64,000 nt of DNA, from positions 1-64,000 of the forward strand of contig JACPAL010000009.1 of the NCBI GenBank assembly GCA_016180855.1, given 5' to 3'. The notes beneath the pieces were generated by a model that saw nothing but the letters and a program-made list of their open reading frames with translations, was not told the DNA's origin and made no database searches. This DNA comes from Deltaproteobacteria bacterium (lineage in GTDB: Bacteria > UBA10199 > JACPAL01). How positions within the stretch are numbered: position 1 is the first letter of the stretch; every line of letters starts with the position of its first letter. A program made the translations under genes and the position numbers. Positions 47,557 to 56,017 of this stretch are shown one piece after another.

Positions 47557-50130
47557 ATGACCAAATTATCATTAAGCTCCCTTGCCATCGTTCTCATTTT
47601 GTCCCTTCAGTTCGGATTTACTGGTTGCTCCCATGATCTAGATGAGGAGGCGGGAGTGGGAAACGAAGAGCAGGCAGCGGGTGGTGATAATGGGACCGAT
47701 CAGAATTCAGAGAATCGTACACCGCCGCAATTTGATGGGGGGAATTCACAGACCGTTGTGAATCGCGCACCTGATTTTGAACCGGACCCGCCTGTTGTTA
47801 TCGGTTGCGAAGGGGATGACGCCTGTCCGACAGGAGAGATTTGCGACAATAACCATTGCCGGCCTCTCACATGCCCCGATGAGATTGATTGTGAGGAGCA
47901 GGAGCTTATTTGCAATACGACGACCGGTCAGTGCGAAGCACCTCCTCCTCCCTGTGAAGAGGATTCGGAGTGCTCCGCAGATAAGGTCTGCAATAGAGAG
48001 ACGGGAGAATGCGAGGTCCCGCACGGTTGTGGCGAGGTGGAGTTTAAGGTCGATTTCAATGAGAATAAGGCACCGTTTTTTGGTTTGACGAGCAATCTGA
48101 CCTCCGATGATCCAACCCCGGATCTGCTCGCCGTTCGGGTTGCCAACTTGAGTGAAAGGGTCTCTTTTTCGAAGCTTTCCATTATTGGACTTATTGCAGG
48201 AGAGAATGTGGAGGTTAACGGGGAGGATCTCTGGCGCTTCAAAATATACGATCAGGAGCATGAAAGAATTGAGGCGCAGGTAACCAGTTGTGATCCCGAG
48301 GCGGGTGAGGGAGATGAGGGATACTGCCAGGGCCTTGCCGAGTTAGAGATGGATCGACCGGCCCTTAAAAATTACTTTGTTCGGTACGACCTGCCGGTGA
48401 CAGGAGATCTCCATGAACTCCATGAGTTTCTTGCGGCCCCGTTGTTTCACGAGAGCTATTTCTGGCCTGTTTATCAATGTGGTGACTACGCCCCGACGGT
48501 TGGCGAGCCTGTTGAGATGACAGCGGCCGATGTTGAGTTGTCAGAGACCGATGGTTGTGTGGTCGAGTTTGATCCGGAGCGGCCCAAGGTAAAGGTGACA
48601 ATGAATGTCTCGAACGCCGTGAGGGCCCATGTGTCTGTCTATGCCGGTAGTAGTCAATCAGAGAGCTACAACTTCCCGATTGAGGAGTACGGCCGTATCG
48701 CCCCGAGCGAGAGAACGCATGAATTTGATATACCGAATGACGGCTTCACCGTTACCTGTGGTGCGAGCGGCTTTGATCCAGGGGCGAACAACCTGTATCG
48801 TGATTATACTGTTGATTTTCATGATTCGGAGCTCCATCTCACGAACAAACTGCTCACGGGTGAGAACGCCTGCCCCTTCTATCTCGGGGAGCGTCCGACC
48901 TCGAGTGAGGATGCCGACATGGATGACGACATGGAGGATTGGTGCAAGGTCGGTCTTGAGATGAGTTTTACGCAGAAGGTGACAGTTGTCCCTCTCTTTG
49001 GTCCCTCGGCAGGAGCGGCCAACAAGAGAAAAACAAGCGGAGGGAAAAAGACCAAGGGGGGCAAGACCACGAAATCGTTACCGGCGAACCGAGAACGGGA
49101 ATTCAGCGTCAATTACGCCAAAAAATTGGAGCTCGTGGCAGTCAGGACAAATGGTCAGCAGAATCTTGAAGATCAGGGGCTCGTCCACTTTGAGGGGTGT
49201 GGCCCCATTTGGAGCCTCGAGGCGGTCAGCGATCGGCCCACGGGGGTCAAAAAGACGACAAAGGATCTGAAAGGGACGAAGAAGAAGGTCTCCGATGAAG
49301 AGAAGGCACCCGCCACTATTGCGGAGGTGAGTCCATTCTACACAGACCATACCTTTATTCACGAGAAACGACACAACCGATGCAACAAGTTTGAGCTCAG
49401 GATGTGGAATTTTGGTGATGAACTGATCGAGGTACCGGTCGAAAAGGAGACCCTTGATGCCGGTTATCTGTCAGAACTGAAGCTGCCATCAGGATGGTAT
49501 GATGCAGAGTGCTATACAGGCGGTTGCAACTTCACTATCAAATGGAAGGGACAACACCTGATTGGCAATCCCCATGTTGAGATCCAGGTCTGGGCACACA
49601 ACGAATCGACAGGGCTCGAACGATGGATTGATACAACGGAACTCGGAAATCACCCGTATCTTACCGAGAGAAGATTGGGGGACACCGAAGAGGATCGTTG
49701 CCGTGTCACGGATCAATTCAATTATGATAGCCGCTACATGGATGAACCGTGGATTCCCAGAGGCACCGATTTTAGCAAGACGGGTGGTGGCTCCTATAAC
49801 GTGGATACCTACCAGATGCAGGGAGATCAGGAGGATGAGGTGACCTCAATTCGTATCGAGAGCCCGTTCTACGACCACGCCTTACGAATCTGGCAGTATG
49901 GCTACGACGGCAAGAAGAGGGAGTTTGTTTGGACTCCATTTCTTACAATGGATTCCCCCGTTTGTGTCTCACCCGATCATTGCTTTCAGCCAATTACGCA
50001 CCTGACCCCCTATGGCCTCCCCTGTTCAGCCAGTTGTTGGAGTGATTCTGACTGCGTTGTTGGACAGTTCTGCACGATGAATGAGGATCTTGGTCGTAGT
50101 ACCTGCCGTGGCTTGAATCCCTACTTCTAA
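47557..50130 (+). CDS. Large Cys-rich lipoprotein
   Basis: An 857-residue secreted lipoprotein. The signal peptide ends with lipobox FTGC near residue 24. Residues 80-160 contain three Cys-rich units of the DACPTGEICDNNHC type, resembling the short EGF/Dickkopf-like repeats of myxobacterial proteins. A low-complexity Lys/Gly/Thr segment (KRKTSGGKKTKGGKTTKS) lies near 489-506. The C-terminal end has another Cys-rich unit (SCWSDSDCVVGQFC). The core looks beta-rich. I recognise no enzyme. It may be a surface or adhesion protein. The stop overlaps the convergent AsmA gene by 4 bases. Confidence 0.75.
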   Translation: MTKLSLSSLAIVLILSLQFGFTGCSHDLDEEAGVGNEEQAAGGDNGTDQNSENRTPPQFDGGNSQTVVNRAPDFEPDPPVVIGCEGDDACPTGEICDNNHCRPLTCPDEIDCEEQELICNTTTGQCEAPPPPCEEDSECSADKVCNRETGECEVPHGCGEVEFKVDFNENKAPFFGLTSNLTSDDPTPDLLAVRVANLSERVSFSKLSIIGLIAGENVEVNGEDLWRFKIYDQEHERIEAQVTSCDPEAGEGDEGYCQGLAELEMDRPALKNYFVRYDLPVTGDLHELHEFLAAPLFHESYFWPVYQCGDYAPTVGEPVEMTAADVELSETDGCVVEFDPERPKVKVTMNVSNAVRAHVSVYAGSSQSESYNFPIEEYGRIAPSERTHEFDIPNDGFTVTCGASGFDPGANNLYRDYTVDFHDSELHLTNKLLTGENACPFYLGERPTSSEDADMDDDMEDWCKVGLEMSFTQKVTVVPLFGPSAGAANKRKTSGGKKTKGGKTTKSLPANREREFSVNYAKKLELVAVRTNGQQNLEDQGLVHFEGCGPIWSLEAVSDRPTGVKKTTKDLKGTKKKVSDEEKAPATIAEVSPFYTDHTFIHEKRHNRCNKFELRMWNFGDELIEVPVEKETLDAGYLSELKLPSGWYDAECYTGGCNFTIKWKGQHLIGNPHVEIQVWAHNESTGLERWIDTTELGNHPYLTERRLGDTEEDRCRVTDQFNYDSRYMDEPWIPRGTDFSKTGGGSYNVDTYQMQGDQEDEVTSIRIESPFYDHALRIWQYGYDGKKREFVWTPFLTMDSPVCVSPDHCFQPITHLTPYGLPCSASCWSDSDCVVGQFCTMNEDLGRSTCRGLNPYF

Positions 50131-53078: not shown

Positions 53079-53658
53079 AATTCAGGGGGTACAGTTAAAT
53101 ATCGGTGCTGGCATCAGTACGATTCGCCTTGATGAGGCGAAAGTAGATACGTTTGGTCACGCTGTCAGAGAGGCAGCGCCTGATGATGGAGACCCAACGA
53201 ATGACCCATCGGGAAGGGTTGGAATCACAGGAGGTCTGACGCTCGGTTTGGGCGGGGAGACGCTCGATGAGTTCAATAATATTAATGTAATGGCTATCCC
53301 GCTCAACCTGCATCTTGAGAAGGTTGGGTCTGGGATCTGGGCTGTTGGGGGGGATGCGGCATTGAGGGGCACATATGATATGGCGGTTTTGGATGTTGGG
53401 GTAAAAACATCGCTTTTGGCAGGAGAGGATGACAAGGCTCTTGGTGTGACTCTCTTTAGTCGAATTGGTGGGCCTTGTGATGTTGCCAATGTGGAATTTG
53501 GCAAGATGGTCTATGAGGAACATGATGCCATATCAACCGCAGGATTTTACATGATGATTTCGATGAATCTGGCAATGATGATGATGTATGGGGGCAGCTA
53601 TTTTAGTTTCAGAGAGCATTTCCCTAGTGCAGAGAGAAAAAAAGAAAGGTCTTATTAA
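53065..53658 (+). CDS. Unknown protein, second of a coupled pair
   Basis: A 197-residue protein of unknown family. The start is the ATG behind AAAGGAGGAG inside the end of the previous gene; the longer frame lacks a ribosome site. It is also Gly-rich and beta-like (GRVGITGGLTLGLGGETL, NLHLEKVGSGIWAVGGDA), with a hydrophobic Met-rich stretch near the end (MNLAMMMMYGG). No signal peptide. Layout similar to the preceding protein suggests a related role, though clear homology between them is not obvious. It ends 4 bases over the convergent lipoprotein stop. Confidence 0.6.
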   Translation: MGAGEIQGVQLNIGAGISTIRLDEAKVDTFGHAVREAAPDDGDPTNDPSGRVGITGGLTLGLGGETLDEFNNINVMAIPLNLHLEKVGSGIWAVGGDAALRGTYDMAVLDVGVKTSLLAGEDDKALGVTLFSRIGGPCDVANVEFGKMVYEEHDAISTAGFYMMISMNLAMMMMYGGSYFSFREHFPSAERKKERSY

Positions 53659-54092
53659 TTGTTTTGGGCCCCGGCATTAATCCAGTCCTTGATGCTCTGA
53701 ATCTGTGCGCTCGTAAGGGCGGAGGAACCTTTCGGCATCTGAACTCCTGAGCCACCAGCCGAGCTTTGTGTCCCCTCGAGTTTGTTAATGAGATAGCTAT
53801 TCGAGGCGTTTCGGGGTTCAACGCGCTGTAAGTTTGTTGCCTCGGTACTGGCCACATCAACTAAATTTTTAAAAGAACTTCCGAGAGAGAGGTCCAATCC
53901 TCCCGAGGCACTGCTCGAAGAATGACAACCTGACTTGGCACAGTTCGGTGTAAAAATGTTGGTCTGAATACTCGAGAGGGTCGAGGTGAGCTCTTCCTCA
54001 TCGGCGTCCTCTTCCGAACCGGTGCAGGCAAGGCCCGAGAGGAGGATGAGCAGGCAAAAAAGGGTCTTTAGTGCTATTCTAAAAAAAGCCAT
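53655..54092 (-). CDS. Lipoprotein-like protein with a CX4CH haem-like motif
   Basis: A 145-residue exported protein starting MAFFRIALKTLFCLLILL. The signal ends in SGLAC, a lipobox-like site. After an Asp/Glu-rich linker, IFTPNCAKSGCHSSSSASGG contains Cys-X4-Cys-His, the variant seen in a class of cytochrome-c-domain proteins common in myxobacteria-like genomes. The following GLDLS and the PKGSSALTSAQIQSIKDWIN ending (a Met/Pro then C-terminal helix) match that cytochrome fold. It probably binds one haem, if the long spacing permits. It overlaps the porin gene by 14 bases. The start upstream of 54092 would be within that gene and is unlikely. Confidence 0.75.
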   Translation of the reverse strand: MAFFRIALKTLFCLLILLSGLACTGSEEDADEEELTSTLSSIQTNIFTPNCAKSGCHSSSSASGGLDLSLGSSFKNLVDVASTEATNLQRVEPRNASNSYLINKLEGTQSSAGGSGVQMPKGSSALTSAQIQSIKDWINAGAQNN

Positions 54093-55161
54093 GCAGTTGT
54101 CCCACAATCTGATCATCTCCCAACGTCCCATTCCCGATTTGCATTCGGTAGAGCAGATTGACCTCCATGAACGGAATCGGAAAAAATTCGACTCCTCCAC
54201 CGATCCGGTGGTGAAGGCCGGAGGGAGCGAGATTGTCGTCCTCGACATCGTAAATCCCCCTGCAGTAAAGCCCCTGGATCGGTGCATAGTTGATCTCTCC
54301 ATAGCCGAGCGTGATTGTTCGATCGGTATCGTTTGTCTTATTCCTTACCTCTGCGCGGTCGACCTCACCCAGCAATGCGACCTTTCCCAGATGCAAGCCG
54401 GAATGGGCTCCCCCGGTGAGGAGTCGGGTTGTCTGGGCATCATTGAAATGAACGGAGCCACCGAACCGGAGAATTGACTTGCGCCATTCGGAAAACCAGG
54501 TGATCGCCTTGGCCTGGTTGTCATCCCCCGCCCCTCCCCCAACGCCGTTTGTGAGAGCCAATGCAAGCGTCAGAGGGCCTGGCTCGGCACCGATTTCAAC
54601 TCCGAGGTCCTGGTTTGCAAAGGTAAACCCGAGATCGCTTCGAATGAAGGAGGTGGGATCGGGGACTCGGAGTCCGTACGGTTGATTCAGCCGGCCAAAT
54701 TTGAACCAACTGTTTCCGGGGAGATGATGCACCATTCCATAAGCCTCGCGACTCGTGGTGTTGGCAAGATCGGTATCGGTATAAATGGTGAGATGTTTGT
54801 GGGGATCTGCAGCAAGATAAAGACTCCCCCACAGAATCGTAAATGAGTTATTCGTAGGTGATTCAATCGTGGAGAGATTTTGCAATCGGACATCCCCGCC
54901 GATGCCAAAATACTGACCGACTCTCCCTTTGAATTCTGGAGGGAAAAGGGGTGAGCTCTTTTTGAGCGAAAATTCACTATAGAGATTGACCCCATGGCTG
55001 CTCCGCATCCCACCCCCCGTCGGATTGACATGACAGTGGCTGCAGGAGGTGTTGGCATAAACGGCAAAGTGAGGGGTGGCATGGGCGGTTTGTGAGACTA
55101 AAAGGGGAAGGAGAATAAGGCTGCTTGCCAAAAGGCAGAATTTCCCGCTAATTCTCTTCAT
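54079..55161 (-). CDS. Porin-like outer-membrane protein with N-terminal CXXCH motif
   Basis: A 360-residue exported protein from the ATG MKRISGKF; a signal peptide (FCLLASSLILLPLLVSQTAHA) is clear. Just after it, ANTSCSHCHVNPTGGGMR has a c-type haem motif, CSHCH. The remaining 300 residues alternate hydrophobic and polar residues and end in GQLHGFF, as in an outer-membrane beta-barrel. The design suggests a monohaem cytochrome-porin fusion or a haem-tagged barrel. It is between mtgA and the CX4CH lipoprotein, overlapping each by 14 bases. Confidence 0.78.
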   Translation of the reverse strand: MKRISGKFCLLASSLILLPLLVSQTAHATPHFAVYANTSCSHCHVNPTGGGMRSSHGVNLYSEFSLKKSSPLFPPEFKGRVGQYFGIGGDVRLQNLSTIESPTNNSFTILWGSLYLAADPHKHLTIYTDTDLANTTSREAYGMVHHLPGNSWFKFGRLNQPYGLRVPDPTSFIRSDLGFTFANQDLGVEIGAEPGPLTLALALTNGVGGGAGDDNQAKAITWFSEWRKSILRFGGSVHFNDAQTTRLLTGGAHSGLHLGKVALLGEVDRAEVRNKTNDTDRTITLGYGEINYAPIQGLYCRGIYDVEDDNLAPSGLHHRIGGGVEFFPIPFMEVNLLYRMQIGNGTLGDDQIVGQLHGFF

Positions 55162-56017
55162 CGGGATTTGAGGTATCAACTTCCTCACCATTTGTCACTT
55201 CTTCTAATTCCTCCAGTATCTCCGGGGTCGATTTTCCGGGCGCCTGCGACCCCTCCTCAGGGATCTCGTTGATTAGCTCCTCAGGCTCTTCCACCGGTTC
55301 GCCATGGATCCGACGGAGGATCATCGCCTTGCGGCGACCTATGTATCGGGCATAGCCCGGGCTGGAATATCTCTTGGGGTTCGGAATGATGGCTGCGAGC
55401 CAGGCGGCCTCTTCGGCCGTCAGGATCGAGGCGGGTTTCCGAAAATAGTGTCTTGCCGCCGCCTCGGCGCCGTAAATCCCCTTTCCCCACTCAATGAGGT
55501 TCAAGTAAAGCTCCAGGATCCTCCTCTTTGTCAGTGAGTGTTCGAGCCGGAACGCAATCACAACTTCAATGATTTTCCGGATGACGGTTTTATTTTTTGA
55601 GAGGTAGAGATTTTTGGCGAGCTGCATTGTAATCGTCGACCCCCCGCGTGCCCAGCGTTTCTTCTTCCAGTTCTTCTTCATCGATTCTCTCATCTCGTGG
55701 AGGTCGATGCCGGGGTGATTATAGAAGTCAAGATCCTCCGCCGCGAGCACCGCCTTTTGGAGCCACGGCGATATCTGTGAAAGGGAGACCGATTGCTGGG
55801 AAGTCCTCCCCCCCTCTGCCGCCATCAGAGCGGTCCCTCGGGGATTGTGGGAGCGAAGGTATAGGGTGTGGGGGATCATGCCGATGTAAAGAAGGCCTAA
55901 GAGGAGGGTGCAAAGGAGAAATGAATAGATCGCAATTTTTATCAAAAAACGTCCCAAGTACATTTGGGGGCAGAGTAAGTTTTGGGAGGAACAGTTAGCA
56001 ACCATTTTTTCATCCAA
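55148..56017 (-). CDS. mtgA: Monofunctional peptidoglycan transglycosylase
   Basis: Polymerises lipid II into glycan strands. GT51 motifs are all present: AAEDLDFYNHPGID, GGSTITMQLAKNLYLS, RKIIEVVIAFRLEHSLTK and NLIEWGKGIYGAEAAARHYF. One membrane anchor is near residues 26-48. No transpeptidase domain is present. A C-terminal acidic tail of about 60 residues (Glu/Pro-rich) is unusual for MtgA. The precise start is uncertain; ATGs at the first and fifth codons are candidates. Confidence 0.88.
   Translation of the reverse strand: MDEKMVANCSSQNLLCPQMYLGRFLIKIAIYSFLLCTLLLGLLYIGMIPHTLYLRSHNPRGTALMAAEGGRTSQQSVSLSQISPWLQKAVLAAEDLDFYNHPGIDLHEMRESMKKNWKKKRWARGGSTITMQLAKNLYLSKNKTVIRKIIEVVIAFRLEHSLTKRRILELYLNLIEWGKGIYGAEAAARHYFRKPASILTAEEAAWLAAIIPNPKRYSSPGYARYIGRRKAMILRRIHGEPVEEPEELINEIPEEGSQAPGKSTPEILEELEEVTNGEEVDTSNPDEEN

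Follow-up and report, generated by a model that had tools for sequence, protein, structure and literature searches.

Outer-membrane electron transfer by a porin with its own haem is known from Cyc2, which is defined by a single CXXCH motif with AXPXFAR[Q/K][T/Y] upstream and PXL downstream, in a 16-stranded porin modelled on the solved porins OprP and OprO (PMC8406198). Cyc2 serves as a genetic marker of neutrophilic iron oxidation, and its motifs are a requirement of published screens. Conduits of the Mtr type (MtrCAB, MtoAB/PioAB, Pcc) also combine a porin with a c-type cytochrome, with a 26-stranded barrel enclosing a decahaem wire (PMC8406198). Among small cytochromes, the relevant comparisons are FoxE, the dihaem cytochrome c acting as Fe(II) oxidase in Rhodobacter, and the class-I-type cytochromes c of the PSCyt1 family (PF07635).

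The window analysed here, a 64,000-nucleotide stretch of a deltaproteobacterial genome, carries on its minus strand, in 5' to 3' order, genes for a peptidoglycan transglycosylase (mtgA), a cytochrome-porin and a cytochrome lipoprotein (Table 1). Longer open reading frames are listed for the porin (from 55191) and the lipoprotein (from 54302); the shorter starts, ATG 55161 and ATG 54092, were preferred because of the signal peptide of the former and the lipobox of the latter. With these starts the genes overlap by exactly 14 bases at each junction, mtgA with the porin at 55148-55161 and the porin with the lipoprotein at 54079-54092, as had been described for this locus. Scans returned five promoter-like sites versus 2.0 expected and one terminator-like site versus 4.3 expected, numbers that carry no information on transcription here.

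Table 1. Features of the cytochrome-porin locus (positions in the window).
Feature	Position	Strand	Basis
mtgA, monofunctional biosynthetic peptidoglycan transglycosylase, upstream neighbour	55148..56017	-	PF00912, TIGR02070, neighbourhood comparison
Cytochrome-porin, 360 aa: signal peptide, N-terminal monohaem segment, predicted 16-stranded beta-barrel	54079..55161	-	sequence, AlphaFold2, Foldseek
Porin CXXCH haem motif, CSHCH, residues 40-44, opening the signature CxxCHxNPTGGGMR	55030..55044	-	invariant in 71 aligned relatives
Predicted beta-barrel of the porin, residues 85-359	54085..54909	-	AlphaFold2 secondary structure
Porin His357, fourth residue from the C-terminus, proposed distal haem ligand	54091..54093	-	conservation, strand alternation
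Outer-membrane-type lipoprotein, 145 aa, one class-I-type cytochrome c domain	53655..54092	-	sequence, FoxE profile match, model
Lipobox Cys23 (SGLAC-TGS), residue +2 Thr, not Asp	54024..54026	-	sequence
Lipoprotein CX4CH haem motif, CAKSGCH, residues 51-57	53922..53942	-	sequence, 32 homologues
Lipoprotein Met119, presumed distal haem ligand	53736..53738	-	invariant in 32 homologues

The overlaps make co-translation of the three genes likely in this organism, and according to the original prediction they could form one system in which MtgA would open the cell wall or anchor to it for an electron route. The comparative evidence makes this highly improbable. MtgA matches PF00912 (E=1.8e-56) and, with 204.4 bits for TIGR02070 against a curated cut-off of 182.65, is an ordinary member of its family. 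All nine genomes searched contain the gene, which in the other porin-bearing genomes lies apart from the porin: in G001 the porin is on contig C3 and the best mtgA on C4, while in G003 they are placed at C8:1083305 and C8:539254, respectively. In G001, which belongs to the same family, the porin keeps the EF-P neighbour that it has in the window, with no mtgA between them. A phmmer search detected no MtgA relative beside the porin in any of 84 fetched porin loci. The enzyme was consequently rejected as a functional part; it is a housekeeping transglycosylase and a chance neighbour outside the module. The order mtgA-porin-lipoprotein was encountered only on this contig in everything searched, and what recurs in other genomes is the porin-lipoprotein pair.

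Relatives of the porin comprised four from other whole genomes (27-64% identity) and 80 loci that a scan of public genomes brought up; 71 of the proteins were aligned. The scan loci belong to Pseudomonadota, Nitrospirota, Myxococcota, Ignavibacteriota, Chlorobiota and Bacteroidota, as well as Gemmatimonadota, Zixiibacteriota, Eiseniibacteriota, Krumholzibacteriota and Neomarinimicrobiota/Fidelibacterota, so that the family extends over at least 10 phyla. No plasmid relatives of the window porin were found, and no paper on the family was found among open-access PMC papers. The window porin has no Pfam or NCBIfam match and the family has no model of its own in either collection; weak matches among the 71 sequences are to Porin_O_P (6), Porin_4 (5) and the LbtU porin (12). 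Each of the 71 carries exactly one CXXCH, directly after the signal peptide as had been noted for the window protein, within the family signature A-x-P-x-[FL]-A-x-x-x-G-x-x-C-x-x-C-H-x-N-P-[ST]-G-G-G-[MKQ]-R. As some of this signature was contained in the scan pattern, the invariance of CXXCH among the scan loci is partly a product of selection, and to rest the conservation on loci collected in this way alone would be circular. An unselected sample was therefore added by a full-length profile search in one other phylum, that of G052, where 25 of 39 genomes match. All 22 full-length proteins of this one-phylum sample contain CXXCH, and in 11 of its loci the 1.5 kb flanks include an open reading frame with a cytochrome domain. 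Judged from these alignments, the conservation of the motif is more than chance would produce.

The AlphaFold2 model of the porin, built with 71 sequences, has 16 strands (pLDDT 89, pTM 0.84). A comparison of the porin sequence with solved structures gave no convincing direct match, and Foldseek relates the model to the 16-stranded porins VhChiP (5.4e-12) and OprP (4.7e-11), and also to OmpT and OprO. The N-terminal segment (residues 30-64) is well predicted, with the haem motif flanked by two short helices. Since AlphaFold2 models no haem, we infer the position of this segment as a plug. By the alternation of residues in the C-terminal strand, His357 would point into the lumen close to the periplasmic end and is thus a candidate for the distal haem ligand; it is kept in 67 of the 71 aligned porins and in 20 of the 22 proteins of the unselected sample.

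The lipoprotein is expected to reside in the outer membrane, as the Lol rule of E. coli assigns this location to lipoproteins whose +2 residue is other than Asp. Its model is all-helical (pLDDT 80), and residues 128-139 form the C-terminal helix typical of cytochromes c, preceded by Met-Pro at positions 119-120; the fold search with this model gave no solved relative and nothing usable. The CX4CH motif reported earlier for this protein is indeed present. In the family of 32 homologues CX2CH, CX3CH and CX4CH interchange while C51, C56, H57 and M119 are invariant, which makes CX4CH a spacing variant rather than a special feature. Each of the two FoxE domains is matched by the family profile (E=1.2e-16 over the whole sequence). 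Unlike FoxE, the window lipoprotein has one domain with one haem motif, a lipid anchor, CX4CH instead of CX2CH, and a porin rather than foxYZ as its neighbour. PSCyt1 is matched by 18 of the 32 homologues, with which the protein shares a CXnCH motif, a distal Met and the C-terminal helix, although the window lipoprotein itself has no Pfam match. In five gammaproteobacterial loci (L017, L051, L054, L064 and L077) the partner is much larger, 527-654 aa, with CHRD or CHRD-like repeats preceding the cytochrome domain.

Haem binding by the two proteins is predicted from sequence, and the motifs might in principle form disulfides or have arisen by chance. This is very unlikely, given that both families keep the two Cys and the His of the motif without exception and in conserved surroundings, that CXXCH is retained throughout the unselected full-length porins, and that the lipoprotein motif changes its spacing while keeping His and the distal Met. 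The ccm genes, whose search had been proposed together with the original prediction, are all present at G000:C2:63657-69074 (ccmA, B, C, E, F, G-like and H), which likewise speaks for haem binding; by its gene content the organism can make c-type cytochromes.

In 43 of the 84 loci a profile search identified a homologous class-I-type monohaem cytochrome, usually a lipoprotein, immediately next to the porin and in the same orientation, 31 times upstream and 12 times downstream, with only 10 matches elsewhere in the fetched loci. In about half of the related loci no recognised cytochrome adjoins the porin, some of the contigs ending there. On the tree of 71 porins, well-supported branches show no fewer than three changes of side by the cytochrome, and the link between the two genes has thus been kept through rearrangement. 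Among 13 genomes searched in the class of the window, the cytochrome occurs in three, all of which have the porin, and it always adjoins the porin; nine genomes without the porin also lack the cytochrome, and G002 has the porin alone. As judged from this co-occurrence, porin and lipoprotein constitute a real, widespread and unnamed two-gene module.

Where the cytochrome domain is missing, other redox proteins were observed beside the porin, in G002, L015 and L012. In the G002 locus (L004, contig C38, porin at 1468-2544) a gene for a plastocyanin-family lipoprotein (PF00127) stands head to head with the porin, as though the place of the cytochrome had been taken by a cupredoxin. Dihaem cytochromes c adjoin the porin in L015, and in the Nitrospiraceae loci L012 and L013 the product of the upstream gene is a lipoprotein that combines cytochrome P460 domains with three CXXCH motifs.

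The overall build of the pair is that of Cyc2: a signal peptide, a single CXXCH in a homologous N-terminal segment, a 16-stranded barrel like those of OprO and OprP, and an adjoining gene for a c-type cytochrome. For comparison, five Cyc2-like genes were collected from plasmids with a query peptide written from the published motif, and each of them is followed by a c-type cytochrome gene. The statement that no system with such a set has been described was therefore too strong, as Cyc2 followed by a c-type cytochrome gene represents the same kind of arrangement (PMC8406198). The profile-profile match between the porin and the Cyc2-like proteins is 97.1% over the N-terminus with the signal included. 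For the mature haem segment alone, hhalign against the five-sequence set gave 97.35% with a score of 52.6, versus 63.8% and 27.8 for an unrelated cytochrome as control. The barrels, at 0.6% in hhalign with the same five sequences, are not alignable. Between the known groups of Cyc2, homology is likewise reported to be confined to the N-terminus (PMC5566968).

The motifs, however, set the two families apart. PxFAR[QK][TY] occurs in none of the 71 porins (the window porin has ATPHFAVYA), although the strict pattern AXPXFAR[Q/K][T/Y] fits only two of the five fetched Cyc2-like proteins. PXL four residues after CXXCH is found in 0/71 porins versus 5/5 of the Cyc2-like set, whereas CxxCHxxP[ST]GxG is present in 71/71. 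The C-terminal, lumen-side His is absent from the five Cyc2-like proteins, and the partner in the window family is a lipoprotein. With the Cyc2 motifs missing throughout, its own signature invariant and only the haem segments matching, the family is Cyc2-like by build and not Cyc2 by definition. No Cyc2 came up when 10 genomes that carry related loci were searched by DNA pattern. At 360 aa the window porin also falls below the 365-aa minimum of the FeGenie Cyc2 screen, while many of its relatives are longer. Near the L018 porin, a second protein (L018:7431-8984) carries AIPAFARREQMPCHRCHDSWPRLNKFG, which is nearer the Cyc2 motif, and two kinds of cytochrome-porin may thus adjoin.

With MtrCAB, MtoAB/PioAB and Pcc the pair would share the use of a porin with a c-type cytochrome as an outer-membrane electron conduit. 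The window pair differs from these systems by its single haems and 16-stranded barrel; each product carries at most one haem motif, as opposed to the multihaem cytochrome that characterises Mtr, Mto and Pcc.

It is also conceivable that the porin is a channel for substrate uptake or sensing, with a haem that is structural, gating or redox-sensing and a lipoprotein that acts as a redox switch rather than a carrier. The weak similarity of some members to substrate porins, namely Porin_O_P and the siderophore porin LbtU, and the Arg and Glu residues conserved across the barrel are consistent with such a function. The alternative partners, however, are redox carriers and the haem segment is Cyc2-like, and we regard this explanation as improbable.

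At the protein level, the porin and its lipoprotein partner probably form a module of two components for electron transfer at the outer membrane, comparable to Cyc2 with its periplasmic cytochrome. The electron route across the outer membrane that had been suggested for the two haem proteins is supported by the conservation of the pair in many phyla and by the homology of the porin haem segment to that of Cyc2. The ccm genes and two haem-copper oxidases of the genome, the FoxE match of the lipoprotein domain, the redox carriers that stand in for a missing cytochrome and the cytochrome genes that follow the Cyc2-like genes point the same way. In the proposed mechanism, the predicted 16-stranded barrel would hold the short monohaem segment within the periplasmic opening of the pore or next to it, where a small soluble redox partner entering from outside could exchange an electron with the porin haem. 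The lipoprotein, presumably anchored in the outer membrane on its periplasmic side, would contact the porin and relay electrons between its haem and the periplasmic respiratory chain. The most likely course would lead from an external donor through the pore to the porin haem, then to the lipoprotein haem and the respiratory chain. Cyc2 and FoxE, as analogues, point to Fe(II) as the foremost candidate for the external partner; inward flow with Fe(II) as the donor is proposed tentatively and may well not hold.

Electrons could instead flow outward, from the periplasm to the lipoprotein and on to the porin haem, which would reduce a soluble external acceptor such as an Fe(III) chelate or humic quinone. 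Relatives of the porin in Ignavibacteriota and Shewanella, and also in Nitrospirota and other Gammaproteobacteria, agree with this direction, and porin-cytochrome conduits have been viewed as able to work either way (PMC10734462). The same genome encodes a 23-haem lipoprotein beside a predicted outer-membrane protein (C5:25509-29244), which also speaks for outward flow. On the other side, both the haem segment of the porin and the domain of the lipoprotein are homologous to those of oxidases, Cyc2 and FoxE, respectively, and terminal oxidases are encoded in the genome. The presence of two haem-copper oxidases of the COX1 family suggests that the organism probably respires oxygen. Outward transfer thus appears rather unlikely, and inward flow is retained as the preferred direction.

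A broader proposal, plausible but held with some reserve, is that the family represents a second, unnamed clade of fused monohaem cytochrome-porins in at least 10 phyla, in which a haem segment of shared ancestry with Cyc2 is joined to a different barrel, takes a His of the last strand as its ligand and has its own outer-membrane cytochrome lipoprotein, or else a different redox carrier, as partner. Lacking the Cyc2 motifs, such a clade would escape Cyc2 screens, and many bacteria without known extracellular electron transfer would then carry such a porin. With a sister family of the same build and a conserved cytochrome partner distributed from Nitrospirota to Ignavibacteriota and Shewanella, more bacteria would come into question for electron exchange over the outer membrane. 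As a clear, small two-protein system, the pair is amenable to testing in E. coli.

Two further loci of the genome deserve mention. At G000:C5:24660-29244 (L141:4661-9245) the 23-haem lipoprotein (827 aa), the predicted outer-membrane protein (412 aa) and a small dihaem lipoprotein are encoded in a row and probably form a multihaem porin-cytochrome conduit. In the window itself, positions 47557-50130 encode a large Cys-rich lipoprotein-like protein of 857 aa without a clear family.
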